Assembly (NCBI RefSeq): GCF_947495325.1
Contig: NZ_CANLYK010000002.1
Coordinates: 1,054,001 to 1,118,000, forward strand
DNA length: 64,000 nt
Reading direction: 5' to 3'
DNA from: an uncultured Allomuricauda sp.
GTDB taxonomy: Bacteria > Bacteroidota > Bacteroidia > Flavobacteriales > Flavobacteriaceae
The position numbers and the translations under genes are program-made. Position 1 is the stretch's first letter. The number at the start of each line of letters is the position of its first letter. The notes beneath the pieces were generated by a model. That model did not search any database. It was given only the letters and a program-made list of their open reading frames with translations, and was not told where the DNA came from. Below are positions 5,715 through 23,930 of the stretch, piece after piece.

Positions 5715-6065
5715 ATGCCCAAACCCAAAGCGCAAAAAAAGATAGTTTTCGATGCACATTTGCCCCGTACCCGATGCACAAAATCGGAACGGGCTGCAAT
5801 CGATGCACGAGCAGCGCAAGCAGGTTTTACACTTTCGGAATATATGCGCCGTATGGGTACAAGGGGCAAAATAGTCGTGAAAGAAAGCAAAGCCGATACT
5901 GGTGTGGTTCGTCAGCTTTTGGGTATCGGAAATAACTTAAACCAATATGTTAAGCGCACCCATATCGGGGGGCTTACTGCCCAAGAGCATGACTTGCTTT
6001 TTGGCACTATCGAAAAATTAGAAACCGTTCTTAATAGATTGCTACATGATACCGAGGGTCAATAG
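5715..6065 (+). CDS. MobC-like relaxosome accessory protein
   Basis: This 116-residue basic protein would bind oriT and help the relaxase nick. It starts with a Lys-rich stretch (MPKPKAQKK), followed by a ribbon-helix-helix-like segment (TKSERAAIDARAAQAGFTLSEYMRRMGTRGK, about 23-53). The C-terminal half LLGIGNNLNQYVKRTHIGG..LLFGTIEKLETVLNRLL is the hallmark of the MobC family. Its last 20 bp overlap the relaxase gene, so the two are translationally coupled, the usual mobCA arrangement. Confidence 0.88.
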   Translation: MPKPKAQKKIVFDAHLPRTRCTKSERAAIDARAAQAGFTLSEYMRRMGTRGKIVVKESKADTGVVRQLLGIGNNLNQYVKRTHIGGLTAQEHDLLFGTIEKLETVLNRLLHDTEGQ

Positions 6066-7734
6066 TCAGGGATATAGCTTTAAAGGCGTTACGGATTATC
6101 TTATGCACGATAAGAAAGCCGATACGGACGAGCGCGTGGCATGGACTGAAACGGGCAATATGTACACCGATGATATTTTTAAAGCTGCGAAGGTTATGGC
6201 ATGGACAGACATGAACGCCCAGCAGCTTAAAATAGAAAATGGGAGCAGTACCGCAGGGCGAAAAACGGAAACGGGGAGCGTTTATCATTATTCGCTATCA
6301 TGGGCGCATCGGGAAACCCCAAATGAAGAACACCAAAGAGAAATGGCCTTGGCAACCTTGGGGCATTTGGGCTTATCTGAAAATGAATATTACTTGGTAG
6401 GTCATAATGATACTGAACATGCCCATGTTCATATTGTTGCCAATTTAACCAACCCTGAAACGGGTAAGCGTACCCATATAGGATTGGATAGAAAAGCCTT
6501 GCAAGCATGGGCTTTGGAATATGAACAAGAACACGGTATACATTGCGAAAATCGAGTATTGAATGCCCAATTAAGGGAACAGGATGGTTCACGTTATTAC
6601 ACCGAAACCCAAAAAGCACGACACGGTATTAAAGTAACACGTGCCTATAATGCTTCCGACGATGGAAAGAGTTTTAAGAATGCTTTGGAACTAGAAGGTT
6701 TACAGCTTGCCCGTGGTCGCCGTTTTCTTTTAGCGGTTGATGATAAAGGTAATATGGTCAATATCGCCAAAGTCATAGATGGTCATACCACTAGAGACAT
6801 GAAAAATAAATTTGCGGATATAGACCGTGATGCATTGCCAAATGTTGACGACCTTGCAGAACGTATTAAAAAGGAAAATGAACCTTTTGACCGTGATGCA
6901 GCAGAAGCCGAACAACAGCAAAAATTAGAAGAAGCTGCCAATATATCAGGAAGGCAAAAGGCGGAAAAAGAGGAGGCACTTGAAGCAAAACGCAAGCGTA
7001 TCGCTAAGCAGGAAAAGGCGAAAAGCTTCAATGATTATTTTGGCAAACGCATAAATGAAGCAAAAGAACGTCATGATATTGAAGGAAGTCGAGAACGTTT
7101 AAAAGATGCAAAAGAAGAATATGCGAAAGTTCACGGTGTTGGCTCTCGATTATTCAAACGTGAACTTTTTGAAGAAGCACACGACAATCTACAAAACCGC
7201 GAAAAGCAATTGGACGAGCAAATGCGTCGTTTCAAAATTGATATTGAAGCAATATATAAAGGGCGGGAATGGCAGATTAAAAAAGAGCTTGAAAAACAGG
7301 GCTTCGCTGAATTGGAAACCTTGGAAGGTAAGACCGACCAGAGCAAAGAAACCATCGAAGCAGCGCAGCAGAAAATGGAGGATGAAGGGGATATTATTAA
7401 AGAAGCGGAAGCAAGCCCCGAAGCAGCAGCACGTTTAGGAAATAGCGTAACTGGTAAAACACCAAGGCAGCGTAAAAAAGTCGGAAGAATTAAAAGGATT
7501 GCAGAAGATTTTAAAGCCAACGAAAAAGCTTTGGAACAGAAAGCTGAACAAGAGCGTATTGCACGAGAATTTGAAGCTTTGGAAAAACAAAAGTTAGATG
7601 AAGAATTGGCAACACCTGATAAAGAAATTCCTGAATTTAAAAATGAAGAAGAACGCCGAATATGGATGGAATTTAACGAAATTGAACAAGAGAACAACAA
7701 CGATATAGACCAAGACGAAGGATTGGACATTTAA
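6046..7734 (+). CDS. relaxase/mobilization nuclease (MobA/VirD2 type)
   Basis: This 562-residue relaxase should nick one strand at oriT and lead it into a recipient. The N-terminal relaxase domain (about 1-200) has the three-histidine metal motif H120-N-D-T-x-H125-x-H127-x-H129-I-V-A-N133. The nucleophilic tyrosine is probably one of the N-terminal tyrosines (Y10 or Y18). From about residue 280 the protein is a long, highly charged coiled coil rich in Glu, Lys, Gln and Ala, ending in a very acidic tail (DIDQDEGLDI). It overlaps mobC by 20 bp, and a small coiled-coil ORF with a similar acidic tail follows it. Confidence 0.95.
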   Translation: MIPRVNSQGYSFKGVTDYLMHDKKADTDERVAWTETGNMYTDDIFKAAKVMAWTDMNAQQLKIENGSSTAGRKTETGSVYHYSLSWAHRETPNEEHQREMALATLGHLGLSENEYYLVGHNDTEHAHVHIVANLTNPETGKRTHIGLDRKALQAWALEYEQEHGIHCENRVLNAQLREQDGSRYYTETQKARHGIKVTRAYNASDDGKSFKNALELEGLQLARGRRFLLAVDDKGNMVNIAKVIDGHTTRDMKNKFADIDRDALPNVDDLAERIKKENEPFDRDAAEAEQQQKLEEAANISGRQKAEKEEALEAKRKRIAKQEKAKSFNDYFGKRINEAKERHDIEGSRERLKDAKEEYAKVHGVGSRLFKRELFEEAHDNLQNREKQLDEQMRRFKIDIEAIYKGREWQIKKELEKQGFAELETLEGKTDQSKETIEAAQQKMEDEGDIIKEAEASPEAAARLGNSVTGKTPRQRKKVGRIKRIAEDFKANEKALEQKAEQERIAREFEALEKQKLDEELATPDKEIPEFKNEEERRIWMEFNEIEQENNNDIDQDEGLDI

Positions 7735-7751
7735 TCTTAAAACCAAAAAAT

Positions 7752-8000
7752 ATGGGCTGGTTATCAGAAGAAAATAGTAGTGAAGAACAAATTGAACACT
7801 ACACGGAGTTATTAAAAAGCAAGCAAGAACAGTTTGAAACGCTTAAAGATGTTACAGGCAGTCCAGAAGCAGAAGCACAGCGTAATCAGTTATTTGAACA
7901 GATTAAACAGATAGAAATTACAATTGCGGAAATAAAGCAAATGGATGGGCAAGAAAAAGCGGAAGACCAAGACGAGGGTTTAGACTTGTTTTTAGATTAA
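7752..8000 (+). CDS. small coiled-coil hypothetical protein
   Basis: This 82-residue protein is predicted to be one long helix (EEQIEHYTELLKSKQEQFETLKD..QRNQLFEQIKQIEITIAEIKQ). Its tail EDQDEGLDLFLD closely echoes the end of the relaxase (DQDEGLDI), which suggests that both carry the same docking or secretion tail, or arose by a local duplication. It lies 17 bp after the relaxase and 16 bp before the coupling protein, in the mobilisation operon. The function is unknown. Confidence 0.7.
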   Translation: MGWLSEENSSEEQIEHYTELLKSKQEQFETLKDVTGSPEAEAQRNQLFEQIKQIEITIAEIKQMDGQEKAEDQDEGLDLFLD

Positions 8001-8016
8001 TTAATACCAAATCAAT

Positions 8017-10152
8017 ATGAAAAAACAGCACGAACCCGCAGCAAATCGAAAAAATGGAATTACTGCACGTATTAATTACGCAATAGCACTCGTATTGATT
8101 GGTATATACGTTCTGATAGTAAGTCGAAATTTATGGAGAAATTTACCTAATTGGTCGGAATTTAATCGAAATACATTTACGTTCAAACGTTATGGCGTAA
8201 TAGATATATTGTTTAACAACGATGGCGAATTACTATTTTTTATTTTGTTAACAGGGGTGTTTCTAACCTCTATTTTATGGTTAATATTTGCATCTAAACT
8301 TGCCGTAATACGGTTACGTCTGTTTAAAAATATCAAGTATTTTATACCAATATTTTGTCTCTTTTATCTCTTTTGGTTTTACATTATCTATTTTAAAAGG
8401 TTTCAAGTTATTGAACAAATAGCCCTTGTTATTGCAGCTAGTGCAATCATTTTAATTCATTTAGTAAGTGTCTATCTTACAAGCATTAATAAACTACCTA
8501 GCAGAAAAATTTTCACCGTGAACGCTATAAACGTTTTCGTGTTATTTGCCGTAGTTCAATACCTTTATCCAAGTCCGTACTTTTGGAACATCATTTGGAT
8601 GTTTGTCGTTCCTGTAATCATTCTCTACTTCAAAAACCTCATTTTAATGACCATAGAGTACGTCAAGGAAACCCATTGGTATGCTCGCTTATTCATCATA
8701 GGGCGCAAAGGTGTATCTGCAAGGTGGGCAAGTATCTATGGCTATATCAAATATGATATCGGTTCGTGGTTTTTAAAAAACAGAAATGTCATATGGTTTT
8801 CTAAAAAAAGCACCATTTTTTACGGTAAAACATTTTGGGAAAATGATTTCCAATTAGGGGGGAGAAATATAGGTGCAACAAACGAATGGCATCATATCTT
8901 GGTTGCAGGAACAAGGGGCGGTAAATCCGTAGATGTTATTTATACCAATGTATTGAACTACGCAGGCGGTATAATTGCCTTAGACCCAAAAGGAGAAATA
9001 ACACAGGTCGTTTGGAAAAGAAGAAGTAAACAAAGACCATTTCACGTTATAGACCCTTTTAAAGTCGTAGTGGGAAAGCCCGAATCGGGAGTTAACTTAA
9101 AGAACTCACATTGGAATCCACTTGATGAAATTGATATAAACCATAGTGAAGCTAGAGAGCATATGCAGACCCTAGCGGAATCCTGTATTGAAAAATCGGA
9201 TAATGAAAAAGGGAACACGGCGCACTTTAGGGAAACGGCTGTAATAGTTTTACGTGGAGTGATTGCATATGTTTTATCTGACCCGTTTTTAACGGACGAC
9301 CAACGCCATTTAGGTACTGTATTTAATTTTTTAAAATATGGAGAGGCAGAAGTTACAGAATTTAGTCCTTTAAAGATTGATGCATTTGTAAAAACAGCTT
9401 TAACAACAAACAACGCTGCAAATGGTGCTGCAAAAGAAGCTGCAAGCGTTTTAGCCACGGCAGGGGTTAAAGGAGAAAGAGGGGCAATACTAACAACCCT
9501 GACGAGGGGAATCGACTGGATAAATTCGGAATCCATACAATCGGTTATCTGTCATAAAGGGGATTTTACATTGCAGGATGCCAAAGCAAAAGAAGCCAGT
9601 ATTTTTTTAATATTACCTGAAGAACACTTAGAGAAATTTAGCCGTCTTACTGCAAGCTTTTTTACTACTGGATTAAATAAATGCAGCAATCATGTTACGC
9701 CACAACCAAAGGGTTCAAAACGCCGTGTATTGTTTTTAATGGAAGAATTTAGCAAGCTAGGATATTTTGCGCCCGCAGCACAAAAAATAACAATTGCAGC
9801 AGGGAGTTACATAAAATTTTGGTTTATTTTACAAAACATTGAACAGCTAACAAAGAAGTATAATAATTCTGCTGATTTCTTAGGAAGTAGCGATTTGCAA
9901 GTTTTTTCTTTAGACAAGAAAGACAATCATACTGCCAATTTTATTTCGGAAATTCTTGGCAGCTATACAAGAAAAACCAATGAAGGAGAGAAAACATATA
10001 AACTTATGGAAGCCATAGAGGTAGCGACCTTTCTCGATATTGGTACTAAAAATCAAATAGTCATACCAAGAGAAGGGCATCCACTAAAACTAAGAACAGT
10101 ACCGTTTTTTAAATTATTTAAACGCAGCAAATACGGAAAGAACACTTATTAA
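8017..10152 (+). CDS. VirD4/TraG-type coupling protein (T4CP)
   Basis: This 711-residue inner-membrane ATPase would hand the relaxosome to a type IV secretion channel. Several hydrophobic segments fill the first 210 residues (for example IALVLIGIYVLIVS, LLFFILLTGVFLTSILWLIF, YFIPIFCLFYLFWFYIIYF), more than the usual two. Walker A is GTRGGKS at 298-304, followed by ALDPKGE. Walker B is LFLMEEF around 572-578, with two Glu where family members often have DE. It is the last large gene of the mobilisation operon. A coupling protein without pore genes is what an IME needs to use a helper's secretion system. Confidence 0.93.
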   Translation: MKKQHEPAANRKNGITARINYAIALVLIGIYVLIVSRNLWRNLPNWSEFNRNTFTFKRYGVIDILFNNDGELLFFILLTGVFLTSILWLIFASKLAVIRLRLFKNIKYFIPIFCLFYLFWFYIIYFKRFQVIEQIALVIAASAIILIHLVSVYLTSINKLPSRKIFTVNAINVFVLFAVVQYLYPSPYFWNIIWMFVVPVIILYFKNLILMTIEYVKETHWYARLFIIGRKGVSARWASIYGYIKYDIGSWFLKNRNVIWFSKKSTIFYGKTFWENDFQLGGRNIGATNEWHHILVAGTRGGKSVDVIYTNVLNYAGGIIALDPKGEITQVVWKRRSKQRPFHVIDPFKVVVGKPESGVNLKNSHWNPLDEIDINHSEAREHMQTLAESCIEKSDNEKGNTAHFRETAVIVLRGVIAYVLSDPFLTDDQRHLGTVFNFLKYGEAEVTEFSPLKIDAFVKTALTTNNAANGAAKEAASVLATAGVKGERGAILTTLTRGIDWINSESIQSVICHKGDFTLQDAKAKEASIFLILPEEHLEKFSRLTASFFTTGLNKCSNHVTPQPKGSKRRVLFLMEEFSKLGYFAPAAQKITIAAGSYIKFWFILQNIEQLTKKYNNSADFLGSSDLQVFSLDKKDNHTANFISEILGSYTRKTNEGEKTYKLMEAIEVATFLDIGTKNQIVIPREGHPLKLRTVPFFKLFKRSKYGKNTY

Positions 10153-14230: not shown

Positions 14231-15601
14231 ATGTCTGAAAAATTATTTGAAAGAGCATGGGGTCATTACACAACGTTACTTCAAAACTTAATAGATAAAG
14301 GGACACCAAAAACAGGTGTTTTTCAACCTTTTAATTTTGCCAATTTGCTACCCTACAACGCAAATGCAAAAAATTATAACAACTTCTTGCTTTATAATCT
14401 TTCTAACTACATCGCACCTACAGAACCATCTTACAGTAATGAAAATGTTGATGAGCAAGTTTTAACACACCCTTCAAAACTTGAGGACGGTTATGCAAAT
14501 TTTTTGGATGAATTCAATGATTTGTTATTACGCTCGCTTAGTAGTGATTTAAGGAGAAATTACGATGTAATGCGGGATGAGTTGAAGATAGAACAAAATG
14601 AACTAAGAGATTATTTAGTTTATGTAAATGATGAATGGAATAAACATAGAACAAGAACAAATATTCCGCAAGATAGATGGGAATCTGAAAAAATTATTTT
14701 TGAAAGAGAATTTGGCTATTCTATGCAAGTAGATAGATATAAAGAAGAAATCAAGAGAATAAATGTTCGTATAAATGCATTTCTAAAATCAAACACATCT
14801 CGTTCTTTATGGCGGCTTGTAGATGCTAAAGCTTATTTTGACGATTCTAATTATTCGGTGCTTTTACCCCCTTCATCTGTGTTTGACAATAATTCAAGTA
14901 GGCAATATTGGAGGAAATTTAAAATGCAATTCCCAATACTAGATATAGATGAGTTTTTGACTAATTCTTCGAAAATAGAAAGAAGCTTTAAAACAGAATC
15001 AGAAGACTATTCACGAGTAGAAACAAAATGGAAAGTGAAAGGTAAAGCTAGATGGGGTTTGTTCTCTGGTGGCGGAAGTGTTGAAAAGAGAAAACTAGAA
15101 GAATTGACAGAAAAAGAACATTTTGAATTTAATGTTTCTTTTGAAAGATTCGAGGAGGTCGAAATTTATAGAGACCGTTGGTTTCAAGACTCACTTTTTT
15201 CAAGTATAGGAAAAGAATTTCCGCAATATTGGGGTCCAAATGGGATTTTAGGAGCAATTCCGTATTCTATGGTTATGGCTCGTGGAACTAAAATCACAGT
15301 AAAAACAAGTGAAGAATATAAAAAAGTGCTTGAGAAATTTATTAAAGGTGGAGGCTCTTTCGGTTTTGGTTCTTTTTTTGGAGGTAGTGCGGGTTATAGT
15401 AGAGATGAAAAATATATGAACTATCGAAAAGAAGAACAGGGGTTCAGTTTGGAAGATAGCAATACAACAATAAGAATTTTAGGAGCGAGAGTAAGAAGAT
15501 TTAATTGGGAAAATGATTTTAACAAAGATTATTATGCGCCCATGACTTCTGAAACTATTAACTCTGCATATGACAATTTTAAGAAGCAAAATAAAGGCTA
15601 A
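14231..15601 (+). CDS. 456-aa unknown protein, first gene of a two-gene cassette
   Basis: I do not recognise this protein. It has no signal peptide or classic membrane helix. Residues about 100-190 are a charged helical region, possibly coiled coil (YDVMRDELKIEQNELRDYLVYVNDEW). The C-terminal half has two glycine-rich patches, GLFSGGGSVE (about 280) and GGGSFGFGSFFGGSAGYS (about 380-400). These flank a repeated-looking plan: a charged beta segment, EVEIYRDRWF..SLF, then GAIPYSMVMARGTKITV. Such Gly/Phe patches can form membrane-active hairpins, but that is only a suggestion. Its stop overlaps the start of a lipoprotein gene (TAATG). Neighbours are the nuclease and replication-type genes. Confidence 0.75.
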   Translation: MSEKLFERAWGHYTTLLQNLIDKGTPKTGVFQPFNFANLLPYNANAKNYNNFLLYNLSNYIAPTEPSYSNENVDEQVLTHPSKLEDGYANFLDEFNDLLLRSLSSDLRRNYDVMRDELKIEQNELRDYLVYVNDEWNKHRTRTNIPQDRWESEKIIFEREFGYSMQVDRYKEEIKRINVRINAFLKSNTSRSLWRLVDAKAYFDDSNYSVLLPPSSVFDNNSSRQYWRKFKMQFPILDIDEFLTNSSKIERSFKTESEDYSRVETKWKVKGKARWGLFSGGGSVEKRKLEELTEKEHFEFNVSFERFEEVEIYRDRWFQDSLFSSIGKEFPQYWGPNGILGAIPYSMVMARGTKITVKTSEEYKKVLEKFIKGGGSFGFGSFFGGSAGYSRDEKYMNYRKEEQGFSLEDSNTTIRILGARVRRFNWENDFNKDYYAPMTSETINSAYDNFKKQNKG

Positions 15602-15924
15602 TGAAAATATATATTTCCTTAATCGTTCTTTTTTTATTTTTTACTAGTTGTGTGTCTATCAAATCCTATCAGCTTGGCAGAAATTATAGTGATGATTTAA
15701 ATGACCCAGACCGAATAGAACTGGAAAGAAAACTAGATGGATTAAAAGAGATTTTAAATAATAATTGTACGGAATCAAAATTGGTTTATGTAGTCAGCGG
15801 TCAACACCTTACAATCAAGATGAAAAATAGATGTAGCAAAAAGTTGGATTCAATAATCTACTATACTCTTTGCACCAAGTTTTCAGATAAGGGGTGTGGT
15901 TTGCTTGTAAAAGAACATTTATAA
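15601..15924 (+). CDS. small lipoprotein coupled to the 456-aa protein
   Basis: This 107-residue protein has a type II signal peptide: KIYISLIVLFLFFTSC, with Cys17 as lipidation site. The mature part is short, charged and contains four further Cys (NNNCTES, KNRCSKK, YTLCTKFSDKGCG), which could form two disulfides. The ATG overlaps the upstream stop by one base, so the two proteins are made together. A lipoprotein partner to a soluble protein with membrane-active-looking patches could be an immunity or anchoring factor. This is inference only. Confidence 0.75.
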   Translation: MKIYISLIVLFLFFTSCVSIKSYQLGRNYSDDLNDPDRIELERKLDGLKEILNNNCTESKLVYVVSGQHLTIKMKNRCSKKLDSIIYYTLCTKFSDKGCGLLVKEHL

Positions 15925-17423: not shown

Positions 17424-18404
17424 TTATAGTTCCATTTGTAAATTGTCGTTTTGGTCATGGTCGTGATATTTAATAGGGCGCATTTCGATACGGTGCATTT
17501 CTTTTGTAGCGACCCAAGAAGCGTTCAAATCCTCAAAACCATAAAAGGTATCACGAGCATCATACACGGCAAAGGGCAGGGCGGTAAAATGCGCCGTTGC
17601 TTGTTCTACCGCTTCGGAAGCCTTTGAACCTTCGGGTTCATTATCGAGCCACAAGACTACATTTTGAACCGTTATATCTTTTCGCAAGAAATCCGCAGCT
17701 TGCTTCGCCATTTTGGTTGAATTTAAGACAATGCAACGCATTCTGGCATCCGTTTGTTCGGTCATCATTAAGTAGCTTAGATAATCAAACATTCCTTCAA
17801 AAACGTTTACCGTGTTCGCCGCTTCACCGTTTCCTCGAACGTTAGCGAACCCATTGGGAGCGATAACCGTTTTCATGTATTTGTTACGAATTGACCAACC
17901 GCCCGAAACGTTTTGCATACCAAGCCCGAAAAATTCCTTTTCCGTTTCGGTATCAAAATAACGAACCTCTTTTAAATGTTTTCGTGCGACCTTTTGGGAA
18001 ATGCCACGTTGTTCAACATAGCTCATTAAAGCGGGGTTCATAATGACCCCTGATTTTCTAACTTCATAACGGGGTTTCTTTTGCTCATATTCACCCGTGG
18101 AATGCGTTCGTTCTATTTGGGGCAGGGAACTACCGCCAATATGGTCGGATAGCCATGTGAGCGCACCTGATACGCTTGTGTTGCCGTATTCCATTACAAG
18201 GTCTATGACCGAACCGCCTTTATCCGTACCAAGGTCTTGCCAAACATTCTTTTGATGATTAACGGAAAAACTAGGGGTGCGTTCCGTTCGCAAAGGGTTC
18301 TCAAACCATTGTTCCGAACCGCCCGAATGTTTACCTAAAGCCTTATAACCCATGCTTTTTAGCACCGTTTCTAAAGGTATTTTATTGGCTTGTTCGCAGT
18401 TCAC
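17424..18404 (-). CDS. toprim-domain primase of mobile elements
   Basis: This 326-residue protein should synthesise primers on transferred single-stranded DNA or at the element's origin. An N-terminal CHC2-like domain (about 15-90) is recognisable from ENPLRTERTPSFSVN and GGSVIDLVMEYGN, but the zinc-binding Cys/His are missing, as in other Bacteroidota mobile-element primases. The toprim domain (about 195-290) has E203 (FEGMFDYLSYL), D207 and D254 (VVLWLDNEPEGS). It ends 7 bp from the convergent coiled-coil gene and starts 12 bp after the end of res, so read-through from the R-M operon may express it. Confidence 0.88.
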   Translation of the reverse strand: MNCEQANKIPLETVLKSMGYKALGKHSGGSEQWFENPLRTERTPSFSVNHQKNVWQDLGTDKGGSVIDLVMEYGNTSVSGALTWLSDHIGGSSLPQIERTHSTGEYEQKKPRYEVRKSGVIMNPALMSYVEQRGISQKVARKHLKEVRYFDTETEKEFFGLGMQNVSGGWSIRNKYMKTVIAPNGFANVRGNGEAANTVNVFEGMFDYLSYLMMTEQTDARMRCIVLNSTKMAKQAADFLRKDITVQNVVLWLDNEPEGSKASEAVEQATAHFTALPFAVYDARDTFYGFEDLNASWVATKEMHRIEMRPIKYHDHDQNDNLQMEL

Positions 18405-18416
18405 TTCAACGTTTCC

Positions 18417-21077
18417 TTATTTTTCTACAAGCTGCCCAACCTTGTTTACTACTTTGTATTCCAGTTTTTCAAATTCTTTGAAATGGGCTTTACCACATTT
18501 GATTTTTAATTGTTCATCGCCACTAAGTTTTGATAAATCAACTTCGGGCGTTCCTGTATCTTTAGTTTCGGCAACGAAATAAATTTTATTGTCGTCCTGA
18601 AATACCAAAGCCCAATCTGGATTATAATTTCCAATAGGCGTAGGAATCTTAAACCAATTCGGCAATTTGAAATAGAACTTTATTTGGTCGCTTGTTTCAC
18701 AATCGGCTGCAAATCTACTTTCAACACCTGAATCCAAGGGGATAAATTCCTCATATATGGTTTTAGTCGTATCTGAAACATTAAACGTAAAATCATTCAA
18801 ATACACTTCTAATTCTTGTGCTTCAAACAACGCCATTTCATATTCAGAACTGCCAATATGTTCATATTTGATTCCGTCTATCATAATTGCATACAAGGCT
18901 CTTTTGATAGCCTGTGCAGCAAGGTCTAGGAATAATTGCGGGTTTACCAGTATATCGCCAATACGCCCCGACTTGCTCAAAATTTCCTGAATGGTAGAAC
19001 GTGTTAACTCTGTTTTACTTTGGATATAACCCAACACATCGGGAATCTGCCACGTATGCCCTTCATAGCTTTCTAAACGTTCGCCCTTGTACTGACCGCC
19101 AACGCCTTCGGTTTCATCCATTGTTACAGCCGTTTTTATGGAGCGCAGGGCAGGGGCTTTGATTTTAGGTAGTTCGCTGATAACTTTAGCAGCCGAAACA
19201 ATCAAATCACTTGTATTATAATCTACCCGATAGGTCGTTTTTTGTTTCAGCTTTTCCCATATTTCTAAAAATTTTGGGTCAGCTTCAAAGCCCTTCCGAT
19301 ATTTAATCGGCGTGCGTTCTCTTTTGTTTTTGATACGTCCTTGGAAAGAAACACCGCAATCATCTTCGATTTCTTTTTGTAATGTCTTAGCAAAATCATC
19401 ATAGGATTCATTAGCAATGACAGTTAAGCGGTTAATGTTTTGGTCATAGGTTCGTTTTCCTTTTTGGTCAACTGCCAAGCGCAAGCCCCTTCCTATTTCC
19501 TGACGTTTTTTAATTTCTGATTTCGTTTCGTTTAAGGTACAAATCTGAAATACATTAGGGTTATCCCAACCCTCACGAAGTGCAGAATGCGAAAAGATAA
19601 ATCGTAAAGGATTATCTATATTCAATAGCTTTTCCTTGTCCTTCATTATCAAGCTATATGTATCATCATCGGCTTTGGTAACACCGCTCGTATCTTTTAT
19701 TTTCCCTTTTTTATCTTGGGAGAAATAACCATTGTGTATTTTATCAATCGGGAATTTATCTAATTCTTTGAAGGCTTTTTGCGCCGCATATTCCGTATAG
19801 ATTTCCTCGAACCATTGGGCATATTTGCCGTCTAAAGGATTACCATTGCTATCGTATTGCCTGTAATTTGCAACCCTATCAATGAAAAATAAAGAGAGTA
19901 CTTTAATGCCTTTTTTACTAAGCCTTTTTTCTTTTTTTAGGTGTTCTTCTACAGTTTTTCGTATTTGAAATTTCATAATTTCATCGGAAAGACCACCTTG
20001 GCTATCCCCTTGGTATAAAACTGTACCATTAGAAAGAGATATACACTCGTTCGATGCATCTATTTCCTCAACAATATAACCATCCGCATATATTTCCCGT
20101 TCGTTTGATAGGGCGTATAAATCTTTACCAACTTCTACAGAAACTTTTTTCTTTTTCACACCGCCATTATCGTTGGCATTGATGAATAGTTTTGCAGTTA
20201 CTTTGGTTTTTGTCGCCGTAATACTGTCAACGGCTATAAAAGCATCATTAAAGGCGTTTTCCTCAACAATGGAATCCACTTCAATTTGTTTTACCAAACC
20301 TAAATCATAGGCTTTTACGGGGTTGAGGCTATAGGTTAAATTATACTGGTTTTTATGCGTGGCGGAATAGCGAAGCGTACAAAGCCCTTTTAGGTTTTCA
20401 ATGGCTGCGGTTCTTTTTTCCGTTTCCATGTTTTGCGGTTCATCTACTATAACAAAAGGGTTTACCGCTTGGATAAATTGCACAGGCTTGCGCCCGTTCA
20501 GTTTATCGTTTGGCTTATTGATGATATTTTCATCCTTGGCAAAGGAATCAATATTGATAACTAAAACCTCAATCGTATTGGTGGTAGCAAAGCCTCTTAA
20601 AGTAGAAGGTTTTCCACTATCATAGACCTGAAAATTGACAGGCACATTATCATATAGATTTTGAAAATGTTCATAGGTTATTTGCAGATTTTTCAAAACA
20701 CCCTCACGAATAGCAATTGAAGGTACAACGATGACAAACTTTTTAAAGCCGTAAAGCTTATTAAGTTCATAAATTGTTCGAAGGTAAACGTATGTTTTTC
20801 CCGTTCCCGTTTCCATTTCAATAGAGAAATTCATCCCATCTAATTCAGAAGACTTTTCAATTTCATTATCTTCTTGAATGCTTTGTAAATTGGATAATAT
20901 TTGACTTTCGGAAAGTATCAATTTATTGCCTACACCAACAATAGAATGTAGTTCACCATCAACATTTAAATCATATTCCATTAAAGAATCGTCAGAAGGT
21001 TGACCCTCAAATAAATCAGTTATTGATTTAATAGCATCTTGCTGAAATTTTAAGTTTGGTTCAAATTCAATCTTCAT
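18417..21077 (-). CDS. res: type III restriction enzyme, Res subunit
   Basis: This 886-residue ATP-dependent helicase-nuclease cuts DNA when two unmethylated sites signal to each other. The N-terminal superfamily 2 motor has Walker A METGTGKT (88-95), motif II VDEPQ (211-215) and a late motif EIGRGLRLA. The C-terminal PD-(D/E)XK nuclease is visible as PDWALVF..IYFVAETKDTG (about 840-860). The length is slightly short of the classical 970 or so residues. It is the last gene of the operon and overlaps the 252-aa gene by 11 bp, so the subunits are made in step. Confidence 0.93.
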   Translation of the reverse strand: MKIEFEPNLKFQQDAIKSITDLFEGQPSDDSLMEYDLNVDGELHSIVGVGNKLILSESQILSNLQSIQEDNEIEKSSELDGMNFSIEMETGTGKTYVYLRTIYELNKLYGFKKFVIVVPSIAIREGVLKNLQITYEHFQNLYDNVPVNFQVYDSGKPSTLRGFATTNTIEVLVINIDSFAKDENIINKPNDKLNGRKPVQFIQAVNPFVIVDEPQNMETEKRTAAIENLKGLCTLRYSATHKNQYNLTYSLNPVKAYDLGLVKQIEVDSIVEENAFNDAFIAVDSITATKTKVTAKLFINANDNGGVKKKKVSVEVGKDLYALSNEREIYADGYIVEEIDASNECISLSNGTVLYQGDSQGGLSDEIMKFQIRKTVEEHLKKEKRLSKKGIKVLSLFFIDRVANYRQYDSNGNPLDGKYAQWFEEIYTEYAAQKAFKELDKFPIDKIHNGYFSQDKKGKIKDTSGVTKADDDTYSLIMKDKEKLLNIDNPLRFIFSHSALREGWDNPNVFQICTLNETKSEIKKRQEIGRGLRLAVDQKGKRTYDQNINRLTVIANESYDDFAKTLQKEIEDDCGVSFQGRIKNKRERTPIKYRKGFEADPKFLEIWEKLKQKTTYRVDYNTSDLIVSAAKVISELPKIKAPALRSIKTAVTMDETEGVGGQYKGERLESYEGHTWQIPDVLGYIQSKTELTRSTIQEILSKSGRIGDILVNPQLFLDLAAQAIKRALYAIMIDGIKYEHIGSSEYEMALFEAQELEVYLNDFTFNVSDTTKTIYEEFIPLDSGVESRFAADCETSDQIKFYFKLPNWFKIPTPIGNYNPDWALVFQDDNKIYFVAETKDTGTPEVDLSKLSGDEQLKIKCGKAHFKEFEKLEYKVVNKVGQLVEK

Positions 21078-21825
21078 TATTGGCTTCTTTTATTTTCTTG
21101 AAAATTTCGATAGAATCTAAAGCATACTCAAAAGGAATTACTAAATAATCGGACTTGCTTGATAATCTTTCAATTGAAACTTCATCATCAGGTATAAATG
21201 ATTTTTCCTTCGTTATTTTATCATTCAAAAACATTTCTTTGGTTGCACCACCAGTTAGAAAAACTTCGAAATTATTTTTATCTATTCTTTGGTTAAATTC
21301 ATTAAAGTCAAAAGGGAATAGCGTTCTACAGTAAATGTCTTTCGTTTGTTCACCACTTTTATAATTATTGGAATATGGTCCAATAATATCAAACTGATAT
21401 TCAGGATTACAAATAGCAAAAACTAACCCATTTCTAGGAAATGAAGACCTAACCTCAATCGTTACTTCATTTTTGATAGTTTTTAAATCAATTTGATTAG
21501 CTAAATCATCAAGTTCTGTTTCAGTAACCAAATGGTCTATATTACTAAGGTTCAGGTATGTTTTCCATAGATATTCCGCTATCATTCCTGCAACAGAATT
21601 AGTCAGTACTCTAGTGTAATTTCGATTTTTAGCTGAATCATTTGCTGCGCCATGATTTACTAAATCTGCTAATTCTTTACCCTTTTTTTTCAATTCATTT
21701 AAAATGAACTTATCGTATTTATTTGTTTCAGGATTAAAAGAAAATTTACAGCAATAGAAGTCAGTTTTCCTTTTGGTAAGAGGAATATCCTTTTTGCAAT
21801 CTATTTTTAAAATATCAACATTCAT
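21067..21825 (-). CDS. unknown protein embedded in the type III R-M operon
   Basis: This 252-residue soluble protein lies between mod and res. It shares one base with mod (TAATG) and 11 bp with res, so it is part of the same translational unit. I do not recognise it as a named family. A stretch from E84 (GMIAEYLWKTYL) through D113 (NQIDLKTI) to E124-x-R126 (VTIEVRSSF) has the order of a PD-(D/E)XK-type core with Arg in place of the usual Lys. Later landmarks are FDIIGPYSNNYKS and FLTGGATKEMF. It could be an accessory nuclease, a specificity or assembly factor, or an inhibitor. The nuclease-fold reading is a hypothesis. Confidence 0.8.
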   Translation of the reverse strand: MNVDILKIDCKKDIPLTKRKTDFYCCKFSFNPETNKYDKFILNELKKKGKELADLVNHGAANDSAKNRNYTRVLTNSVAGMIAEYLWKTYLNLSNIDHLVTETELDDLANQIDLKTIKNEVTIEVRSSFPRNGLVFAICNPEYQFDIIGPYSNNYKSGEQTKDIYCRTLFPFDFNEFNQRIDKNNFEVFLTGGATKEMFLNDKITKEKSFIPDDEVSIERLSSKSDYLVIPFEYALDSIEIFKKIKEANNED

Positions 21826-23663
21826 TATATAGTACGTAATTCAATTTTTTGGTCTTTAAACTGCAAAACTGTGTTAGTTTTTAATTGGTCATTCCCCTTA
21901 AACAATTTATCCAAGGCTATAACTTTTCTTGGTTTCTCATTTAAAACTTTCCCAACAATAGATTCCGAAGCTTTTTCTAATATTAATATCAATTCATCCT
22001 TATTTATTGAAAAATAACCATCCTTATGCTGGACTTTGCTATTCAAGCTTTTTCCATTTTTCAATATAAACTCATATACCATATTTTGAATAATAGTTGA
22101 TGATTTAACGGGGTCTACGAATAATTTCATTTGTTCTTCCAAGGCTTTTGCATCCTTGTCTTTAACCTGCTGCCATTGTTTAAAATTTGTATCGGTAAGT
22201 TTAAAAGACTTAAAACCTAAATCGGCACCACTATTCATATTTTCTGCTACTTTTCTCAGTCGTAAACGAGAAATGTCTGCAATGGATTTATATCCTTTGC
22301 TATATGCTTCGCTATCTTCATCTGTTTTTTCCGCTAACTGAATACATATAAATTTCCTGTTAGATTTTTCTTCCTCATTCAGTTCAAAAACTGCGTGTCC
22401 CGTTGTTCCAGAACCACAGAAAAAATCTAAAATTATATCATCACTATCAGTAGATGATTTAATGAGTTCCTTTATTACTTCTACATTCTTTGGAAAATCG
22501 AATAACCCTTTGATTATTTCTTCATTTTTTGAAGCAAGTAAGTCAGTCCAATTACTATTTCTTAAAATCCCTTCTGACGGAGCAATCCAGTTTTCAACAC
22601 CCAAATTTTTCCCTTTACCATTTGGGTTTCTTCTTATAAATCTTAGTTTTTTGCCCGTTCTTTCCCAGTATTCTTCTAAAGTTTCCTTCTTCGAAAATTC
22701 ATTAATGTATGTTTCATAGTTTTTTACAGCTTCATCCGATACTTTTTGACTCCATTTCCATTGTCCACTTTCAGGAGTGAACCCCAAGATATCATATCGC
22801 ATGGTAGGTCTATCTGCATCATTCCAAAACCCTTTCCAATAACCTTTAGTTTTTCTTTCTGATGAACTTTCTTTATACAAAGCATTAAAACTAAATTCAT
22901 TGGATTTTGAATAACACAAAACATATTCAAAGCCGACATTAAAAGTCTTAAGACCTTTCTTAATAAATTGGGCATTTAGGTTTTTGTCATATCTTCTGAT
23001 AATAAAAGAATTTCTAAAATTTTCTTCACCAAAAATTTCGTTCATTATTAGTTTCAGGTTGGACACTTCTTCCTCACCAATAGAAACAAAAATAACCCCG
23101 TCATTCTTTAATAAATTCTTAGCTAGAAACAAGCGAGGGTATATCATATTCATCCAATTACTATGATATTGACCGTTTTCCTTGCTGTTTTTCTTAAACT
23201 TCGCATCTTTGGTCATGTTACCTTCTTCATCTTTATCACCCACGCGTTTAGCGTAGTCTTTTTTGCTTTCTGCAAACTTGTCAGGATAAATAAAAGAATC
23301 GTTACCTGTATTGTAAGGAGGGTCTATATAAATCATCTTTACTTTTCCGAAATAACTTCTTTGAAGCACCTTAAGCACTTCTAAGTTCTCACCCTCAATA
23401 AATATATTTTCGGTTTCATCAAATTTTATGGATTCATCTTTTTCAGGAACAAGAGTGCTAGAAGTAGGGGCTTGTAAAACTTTAAATGCTTCGCTTTTTC
23501 CTGCCCAATTCAGTACATAACGTTCATTTGTGAAATTTATATCTTCCCCAAGAGCAGCTTTTAATTTTTCCCAATCTATTTTTCCTTCTGCAAAAGCTTC
23601 GGGTAATACTTCACGCAGCGCATTAAGTTTTTGTTGTTGTGGTGTTAGGCTAGTTCCGTCCAT
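21825..23663 (-). CDS. mod: type III DNA methyltransferase, Mod subunit
   Basis: This 612-residue adenine-N6 methyltransferase recognises the target site and methylates one strand. The catalytic motif IV DPPYNTG (114-120) precedes the SAM-binding motif I DFFCGSGT (413-420), the beta-class order of type III Mod proteins. The roughly 270 residues between them (about 130-400) hold the target recognition domain, the part that varies between systems. It starts 4 bp after the XRE gene and overlaps the next gene by one base. No phase-variable simple repeat is seen in the frame. Confidence 0.95.
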   Translation of the reverse strand: MDGTSLTPQQQKLNALREVLPEAFAEGKIDWEKLKAALGEDINFTNERYVLNWAGKSEAFKVLQAPTSSTLVPEKDESIKFDETENIFIEGENLEVLKVLQRSYFGKVKMIYIDPPYNTGNDSFIYPDKFAESKKDYAKRVGDKDEEGNMTKDAKFKKNSKENGQYHSNWMNMIYPRLFLAKNLLKNDGVIFVSIGEEEVSNLKLIMNEIFGEENFRNSFIIRRYDKNLNAQFIKKGLKTFNVGFEYVLCYSKSNEFSFNALYKESSSERKTKGYWKGFWNDADRPTMRYDILGFTPESGQWKWSQKVSDEAVKNYETYINEFSKKETLEEYWERTGKKLRFIRRNPNGKGKNLGVENWIAPSEGILRNSNWTDLLASKNEEIIKGLFDFPKNVEVIKELIKSSTDSDDIILDFFCGSGTTGHAVFELNEEEKSNRKFICIQLAEKTDEDSEAYSKGYKSIADISRLRLRKVAENMNSGADLGFKSFKLTDTNFKQWQQVKDKDAKALEEQMKLFVDPVKSSTIIQNMVYEFILKNGKSLNSKVQHKDGYFSINKDELILILEKASESIVGKVLNEKPRKVIALDKLFKGNDQLKTNTVLQFKDQKIELRTI

Positions 23664-23667
23664 ATTT

Positions 23668-23865
23668 TTAGCAATCTTTTCTTTTAGTCAGTAATTCTTG
23701 CGCTTCTATATTTAGTATATCTGCAATCTTGTATAAATCCTCTAGGCTAGGTTGTCGCCTGTTTTGTGCATAAGAGTTTACCATGTTGTAACTCTTGCCA
23801 AGTTGTTCAGCCAACCATTTTTGTTTTATGCCTTTTTCTTCTAAAACCTCTTTAATACGGTTCAT
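23668..23865 (-). CDS. XRE-family regulator of the R-M operon
   Basis: This 65-residue lambda-repressor-type HTH (MNRIKEVLEEKGIKQKWLAEQLGKSYNMVNSYAQNRRQPSLEDLYKIADIL) stands at the head of the mod-X-res operon. Small XRE proteins in this place are controllers that delay restriction until methylation is established. The open frame reaches 23910, but only with a TTG start; ATG 23865 follows the promoter-like TATCTTAG and is preferred. A near-palindrome upstream (23909-23930) is a plausible operator. Confidence 0.88.
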   Translation of the reverse strand: MNRIKEVLEEKGIKQKWLAEQLGKSYNMVNSYAQNRRQPSLEDLYKIADILNIEAQELLTKRKDC

Positions 23866-23887
23866 TTTGCATATTATATTAAGCTGA

Positions 23888-23930
23888 CTAAGATATAAAA
23901 GTTCAATCAATATCTCATGAAGTGAGTATT
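23888..23930 (-). promoter_or_regulatory. candidate promoter and operator of the XRE-mod-X-res operon
   Basis: TATCTTAG on the minus strand (23895-23888) is the probable -7 element. Just upstream, AATA(T)CTCA-TGAAG-TGAGTATT (23909-23930) is a palindrome broken only by one extra T and lies where a repressor would meet RNA polymerase. This suggests autoregulation by the XRE protein. Confidence 0.5.

Follow-up and report, generated by a model that had tools for sequence, protein, structure and literature searches.

The 64,000-nucleotide stretch of an uncultured Allomuricauda sp. contig analysed here (NZ_CANLYK010000002.1, positions 1,054,001 to 1,118,000; hereafter the window, numbered from its first letter) carries on its minus strand a complete type III restriction-modification (R-M) operon with a third gene, here called X, in the gap between mod and res. 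From the conservation of its family, its gene neighbourhood, its modelled fold and the mosaic make-up of the operon, we put at about even odds that X acts as a further restriction nuclease which Mod methylation keeps under control. The genes mod (21825..23663), X (21067..21825) and res (18417..21077) follow each other without a break; the order mod-X-res, the 252 amino acids (aa) of X and its overlaps with both neighbours, all described in an earlier sequence-only reading, are borne out by the listing of open reading frames and by the sequence itself. The mod stop and the X start share 1 bp in TAATG, and X and res share 11 bp, ATGAAGATTGA. These overlaps are not a conserved feature: in the X-bearing operons L010, L017 and L018 there are gaps of 9-18 bp on both sides of X, and in L097 a 6-bp gap is followed once more by an 11-bp overlap of X and res.

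Both partner genes of X appear intact. Mod, a type III DNA methyltransferase of 612 aa with the beta-class motif order, matches PF01555 (expect value, E, 1.3e-35) and the PADLOC profile MTase_III (528 bits), and it retains DPPY at aa 114 and FCGSG, a motif of the FxGxG type, at aa 415. Res, a superfamily 2 (SF2) helicase of 886 aa with a C-terminal endonuclease domain, matches PF04851 (E 1.2e-14), PF19778 (E 2.9e-34) and the PADLOC profile REase_III (1012 bits), and retains GTGKT (Walker A), DEPQ, QEIGRGLR (motif VI) and PDWA...ETK.

X belongs to a family of 15 members, that of the window included, which spans Bacteroidota to archaea with identities of 26-46% in distant taxa. Searches with tblastn found relatives in 5 of 72,556 plasmids (from Campylobacter coli, Methanomethylovorans hollandica, Lactococcus lactis, Methanocaldococcus jannaschii and Thermococcus barophilus), all five annotated as 'hypothetical protein', and in none of 50,697 phage records. 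Scanning for a sequence pattern added a viral contig (L010) and six genome-contig loci (L017-L022; six of the nine pattern-matching stretches), and a sample of the genus of L017's genome held X in 3 of 279 genomes, namely L096, L097 and the query genome itself. The gene is rare: the single genome with X in the phylum sample (1/395), in the order sample (1/296) and in the family of L018's genome (1/320) was each time the query's own, and three more matches in the phylum sample (L002-L004, E 0.002-0.009) were judged to be chance. Scans of genome contigs and viral sequences with X alone yielded no result, and viral scans with X subfamilies nothing new. A tree of X with 12 rows was poorly resolved, and nothing was inferred from it.

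The core of this family is strongly conserved. The residues E84 (21574-21576), D113 (21487-21489), E124 (21454-21456) and R126 (21448-21450), all on the minus strand, lie where the sequence-only reading had put them and are conserved across the 15 relatives. Alignment shows E124, R126, S127, S128, Y151, K156, E159 and K162 to be invariant in 15/15 members; E84 is kept in all 14 members that reach that position, and D113 in 13/15, the other two, from hyperthermophilic archaea, having E or K there and D two residues earlier. The acidic residues of catalytic type, that is, D and E of the core and the helix E, are therefore present at these same frequencies. The two plasmids with the shifted motif D (L008 3332-7708 and L009 3243-7606) carry X behind a large N-6 DNA methylase. 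An open frame of at least 230 aa is found in 14 of the 15 loci; the exception is L022, which begins where its contig does and is interrupted by a stop within the match.

No listed family accounts for the protein. At E up to 1 the window's X matched no entry of Pfam, NCBIfam or PADLOC, and its single PHROG match had E 0.035. Weak single-member matches of the five plasmid members to Pfam (best E 0.0026, a poxvirus family), those of L096 and L097 to Pfam (best E 0.027) and those of seven members to NCBIfam (best E 0.0058) were judged to be chance, and four members compared with PADLOC gave none at E 0.001. Membership of X in a listed family is ruled out by these searches of Pfam, NCBIfam, PADLOC and PHROG; that X might be a chance open reading frame is ruled out by its homologues and their conserved core.

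The fold of X is likely to be PD-(D/E)XK-like, to judge from two structural models. In the AlphaFold model of the window's X, made from seven sequences (predicted local distance difference test, pLDDT, 83.6; predicted template modelling score 0.85), a long helix holds E84, one strand starts just past D113 and a strand carries E124 and R126. When this model was compared with VIA-align, I-Ssp6803I came out on top (Z 8.4; root mean square deviation 2.8 over 121 aligned residues), followed by D212 (7.6), SPARDA (7.1), NhoI (7.1), Hjc (6.5), DpnI (6.0), EcoRV (5.4) and HincII (5.1). A model of the L020 protein, from the same seven sequences in another order (pLDDT 75.5), again had I-Ssp6803I first (Z 7.9) and then D212, SPARDA, DpnI, SwaI and EcoRV. 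Nine of the ten best rows for each of the two models are enzymes that we take to be of the PD-(D/E)XK class, the tenth being the N-terminal domain of NhoI or Eco15I, whose superfamily class we do not vouch for. EcoRI and Cfr10I were not among the rows for the X model, a non-listing that is no exclusion. Among viral models, Foldseek found 17 matches (E up to 0.001), mostly uncharacterized proteins and one named as a restriction endonuclease. A search of PDB sequences with X had a best E of 0.1.

The company that X keeps points in the same direction. Directly upstream of X, on the same strand, stands a DNA methyltransferase gene in 11/15 loci (window, L005, L008, L009, L010, L017, L018, L019, L020, L021 and L097), so that the feature expected of a type II R-M pair, a candidate endonuclease gene next to a methyltransferase gene, is present. 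The order is mod-X-res in the window and in L010, L017, L018 and L097; the search for such operons that had been proposed earlier thus turned up four beyond the window. The remaining methyltransferases are an EcoRI-family enzyme (PF13651) in L005, a D12-family enzyme (PF02086) in L020, PF01555 enzymes in L019, where the contig stops 50 bp past X, and in L021, and proteins of about 1,180-1,200 aa annotated as N-6 DNA methylase in L008 and L009. The fetched stretches of L005, L020 and L021 contain no res gene. Elsewhere the arrangement varies: the M. hollandica plasmid (L006) has the order X-mod-res, with mod directly downstream of X; L022 has a contig end before X and res downstream; and in L096 X lies tail to tail with another type III res-mod pair and has a 187-aa protein upstream. 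Since X occurs behind methyltransferases of several families, in three loci with no res in view, it looks like a portable restriction nuclease, and its placement, as far as gene order tells, is the habit of such an enzyme. The X proteins of L005 and L021 are 61% identical and stand beside methyltransferases of different families (EcoRI family and PF01555), as would be expected if the nuclease kept its site and the methyltransferase was replaced. The small methyltransferases beside X, compared with the Mod recognition segment, gave a best E of 0.35.

Two of these loci hold further small proteins. In L097 (1-12000) one strand reads helicase, GmrSD, mod1, Y, mod2, X, res; each of the two mods has its own small protein behind it, the second being X. 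On visual inspection Y, of 260 aa and with no Pfam match, seems to contain a PD-(D/E)XK-like stretch, D...E-L-K. The 187-aa protein of L096 (6547-7110), directly before X in the methyltransferase position, has by eye a PD...E-A-K-like stretch and likewise no Pfam match.

A further possible link between X and Mod comes from the mosaic structure of the window's operon. By its Res, this operon is closest to L051 (80% identity), with which it pairs in the Res tree at support 100/100, and both lie inside a supported group with L059, L060 and L061; the Res proteins of L010, L017 and L018, whose operons carry X, branch off as a group one step further out, at 54-55% identity to that of the window. Mod follows L051 over residues 1-216 (up to 98% per 40-residue window) and again from about residue 441 on (50-72%), whereas over residues 226-386 it shares 54-60% identity with L010, L017 and L018 and 10% with L051. 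Residues 401-440 are also nearer to the X operons (42-50% versus 38% to L051), so the exchange may reach to about residue 440. We place the exchanged recognition segment at aa 217-400 (22464..23015, minus strand) by this identity comparison. In a DNA comparison three blocks of the operon match L051 (1-648, 1441-1811 and 2583-5232, operon coordinates), and nothing matches between them; the unmatched blocks are the Mod recognition segment and X, both of which resemble L010, L017 and L018 at the protein level. The DNA between recognition segment and X is L051-like, and the mosaic is therefore not simply one tract. Within the recognition segment L051, L059, L060 and L061 share 19-34% identity among themselves versus 10-14% with the window, which makes the window the likely recipient. 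By these comparisons X and the recognition segment differ jointly from the nearest relative, and X may belong with the specificity of Mod; the sequence-only reading had not noticed this mosaic.

Several observations weigh against reading X as a restriction nuclease tied to Mod. The lysine of the (D/E)XK motif is replaced in 15/15 members by the invariant R126. Substitutions at this lysine position do occur in the PD-(D/E)XK superfamily; given the arginine found there, we class X as PD-(D/E)XK-like and not as a certain member. Z values near 8 are at the edge of the range of unrelated models, for which reason we grade the fold as likely and not as proven, and unrelated proteins appear for the L020 model from rank 11 (Z 4.2). 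Foldseek of the X model against the PDB gave nothing better than E 0.17, and profile searches of PDB sequences with X gave no match. The PD-(D/E)XK-like core suggested by the sequence-only reading thus finds support in the conservation over 15 relatives and in the fold matches of two models, subject to two reservations, the invariant arginine and the moderate fold scores. As to the surroundings, the X of L007 has an insertion sequence upstream and no adjoining methyltransferase.

The joint change of X and recognition segment is open to objections too. G+C content does not separate the exchanged parts of the operon (X 28.6%, recognition segment 31.7%) from the kept ones (C part of mod 30.8%, N part of mod 34.9%, res 36.3%). 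The recognition segment is common to four of the five mod-X-res operons (window, L010, L017 and L018) and differs in L097. A segment of the window type occurs without X in two Enterococcus plasmids (L080 and L083; 51%), in a viral contig (L084; 65%) and in a genome of the same class with res-mod order (L090), and conversely X occurs with a quite different segment in L006 and with another one in L097. More distant relatives of the segment without X are those of L081, L082, L091 and L092, L082 having another small protein in the slot, and the X of L096 lies near a distantly similar segment (25-30% versus 17-18% in the rest of Mod). With the segment found without X and X with other segments, the coupling is not strict; a strict one-to-one coupling is ruled out by the searches that started from the segment. 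By rough lineage counts the chance of a joint coincidence is 0.003 to 0.04, a range whose inputs, 2/25 and 6/29, are our own estimates. These values flatter the case, because we chose the inputs ourselves and the search with X supplied three of the four matching operons, and the joint change of X and segment is in effect one event.

What occupies the gap between mod and res in other operons was surveyed among relatives found via Res, not via X, comprising 16 of the 24 other genomes, 11 of the 141 plasmid records and 2 of the 17 phage records with a Res match; operons found via X, such as that of the M. hollandica plasmid (L006), were left out. The slot could be read in mod-then-res order in 24 of the 29 regions, while in the other five res precedes mod (L070, L072 and L073, the last with BRO-N separating the two) or the stretch lacks mod (L064 and L071). 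None of the 24 carries X. Thirteen slots are empty (L053, L055, L057, L058, L061, L066, L069 and L074-L079), that of L057 apart from an annotated 171-bp reading frame, and L057 and L066 have a second mod. Other genes fill the remaining 11: a YhcG/DUF1016 nuclease in L051 (PF06250; PADLOC PDC-S02), GmrSD homologues in L052 and L054, RhuM in L056, a Schlafen/AlbA_2 gene with a ParA-like gene in L059, an SMC-like protein with AlbA_2 in L060 and L065 (the PHP part read from sequence; PADLOC gives Ppl for L060), KilA-N in L062, HipA_C with a second, unassigned open reading frame in L063, AlbA_2 in L067, and a DndB-like protein with a 244-aa protein in L068. The other eight Res-matching genomes were covered by a quick scan of 1.5-kb flanks, and over all 27 rows of that scan X turned up at the window's own locus only. 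These gene contents mark the mod-res gap as a cargo site of variable content, and the absence of X from all 24 operons rules out that it is a fixed third subunit of type III systems. The sequence-only reading had taken absence of X from most related operons as telling against its proposal. Such absence is literally what was found; yet it does not make X an accident, because the slot is variable and the gene turns up again in four further mod-X-res operons as well as after methyltransferases of other kinds.

How a second nuclease might work in such an operon can be sketched as follows. X would cut or nick DNA, reading the same site as Mod, and methylation by Mod would block it; one methyltransferase would then serve both Res, with its need for two oppositely oriented sites, and X, which perhaps acts at one site. 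According to passages of a published account, type III Mods methylate one strand, so that one daughter site is bare after replication; Res tolerates this since it needs two inverted sites, and phage T7, which has all its EcoP15 sites in one orientation, is not restricted (PMC3874151). Given methylation of one strand and a bare daughter site, simple cutting by X would kill the host; one would therefore expect X to make nicks, to require a pair of sites or to be licensed by Mod or Res. If X acted at single sites, it would hit those phages with all sites in one direction that escape Res. A fuller proposal, tentative and on balance doubtful, is that of a hybrid type II/III system: one Mod would guard the host against two nucleases of the same site, the ATP-driven Res at two inverted sites and X at single ones, so that one-orientation phages no longer escape; X and the Mod segment would be exchanged as a specificity cassette; and X would found a new E-x-R nuclease family.

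Other explanations of X have to be weighed against this one. X could be an independent, type IV-like nuclease directed at phage DNA that is modified or special in some other way, and would then add another layer of defence in the slot, neither guided nor restrained by Mod. The slot holds GmrSD homologues in L052 and L054, GmrSD lies upstream in L097, DpnI and NhoI, which act on methylated DNA, are among the fold matches of X, and one paper places the type IV genes TgvAB in a type I cluster and BrxU in a BREX operon (PMC11411939). Such enzymes need no partner methyltransferase, yet X stands directly behind one in 11 of its 15 loci; moreover, the Mod recognition segment changed jointly with X in the window's operon, and Pfam finds no DUF262/GmrSD_N domain in X. 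We regard this explanation as unlikely. It is also conceivable that X is a guard nuclease, silenced by the Mod-Res complex and freed when a phage inhibitor disables that complex, in the manner of PrrC in a type IC system. The gene for PrrC lies within a type I operon, and inhibition of EcoPrrI by Stp sets the protein free, as described in a published account (PMC12707154). X for its part overlaps both mod and res in the window. Against such a role, X accompanies single methyltransferases with no res in view (L005, L020 and L021), and one conserved binding surface would be improbable for partner methyltransferases of several families. The anticodon nucleases PrrC and RloC combine an ATPase domain with a nuclease domain, and X showed no such ATPase domain when compared with Pfam, NCBIfam and PADLOC (E up to 1). 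A guard function thus seems quite unlikely to us.

A non-catalytic role would fit the usual position of X behind a methyltransferase, the arginine in place of the nuclease-motif lysine and the further invariant residues Y151, K156, E159 and K162; X would then assist the methyltransferase as a regulatory partner, perhaps as a subunit that lends specificity or stability. The retention of E84, E124 and mostly D113, in the way of catalytic residues, speaks against it, as do the related mod-res operons without X and the several families of methyltransferase involved, and we rate this role as very unlikely. Least probable of all, in our view, is a neutral passenger of a recombination-prone slot. The slot does change often, and X is as rare as the genome samples indicate (1/395, 1/296, 1/320 and 3/279, the query's own counted); set against this are a core that is invariant across bacteria and archaea, the long open frames in 14 of 15 loci and the recurrent position behind methyltransferases. 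Among the three roles that had been offered for X from the start, an extra nuclease, a control subunit or a second defence activity, the first appears to be the best choice, going by its conservation, neighbours and predicted fold.

The window's system combines features of several described ones. As in the type III systems EcoP1I, EcoP15I and HinfIII, Mod has methyltransferase motifs and a variable recognition segment and Res is an SF2 helicase with a C-terminal endonuclease; unlike them, the window has a third, nuclease-like gene between the two. What it shares with type II R-M pairs is the position of X immediately after a single methyltransferase, with no res in view at three loci or more; it differs from them in that the window's methyltransferase is a type III Mod already serving Res. 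The YhcG/DUF1016 protein of L051, the nearest relative by Res, is a PDDEXK nuclease in the same slot, unlike X in its family and in the Mod segment beside it; the YhcG family is already a PADLOC candidate, and the X family is, by the profile searches above, unnamed. A 2024 preprint by Payne et al. on embedded genes, known to us through a citing paper only, may cover part of the slot finding. Within the titles, abstract openings and some passages covered, with preprints and most subscription papers outside that scope, no described nuclease gene between mod and res was found. Type III systems with a third, helicase (ATPase) gene 5' of mod occur in over 500 genomes, as stated in passages of one paper (PMC8259958); in both cases the extra gene is linked to mod and res, there a helicase before mod and here a nuclease-like gene between them. 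Helicase genes upstream of mod, annotated or seen, which may be of that family, are present in L006, L054, L055, L062, L075, L077 and L079. Like TgvAB in a type I cluster, BrxU in BREX and PrrC in EcoPrrI, to go by the parts of two papers that describe them, X is an extra defence gene inside a multi-gene restriction operon (PMC11411939, PMC12707154); it has no match to those families and appears to travel with methyltransferase specificity.

Around the three genes lie others that may or may not belong with them. An XRE/Cro-type regulator of 80 aa (23668..23910, minus strand; PF01381, E 4e-12) ends 4 bp before mod and is a probable control gene of the operon; an XRE-like gene before mod is also found in L074 (phmmer label) and, by eye, in L018 and L060. 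A promoter scan gave promoter-like sites at the level of shuffles. On the other side, 12 bp after res and on the same strand, is a gene for a DnaG-like zinc-finger/Toprim protein of 326 aa (17424..18404, minus strand; PF13155 and PF01807), which is probably part of the surrounding mobilizable element and outside the system, and is possibly cotranscribed with the operon. Genes for a MobC/NikA-like protein, a relaxase and a TraG-type coupling protein (5715-10152) put the operon beside a mobilizable element. At 14231-15924 a 456-aa protein with no Pfam match at E up to 1 is followed, with a 1-base overlap, by a 107-aa probable lipoprotein (by eye). In other operons an ATPase/helicase-like protein of about 1,610-1,620 aa is encoded directly behind res (L010 10145-14995, L018 11510-16369 and, cut, L082 10151-12495).

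If X is indeed a nuclease restrained by Mod, a type III Mod would be able to serve a simpler nuclease besides Res, and an old question would become testable, namely how a system that methylates one strand hosts such a nuclease without suicide after replication. The finding also marks the mod-res gap as somewhere to seek new defence genes, and X points to an unnamed nuclease family that may be a source of new enzymes.

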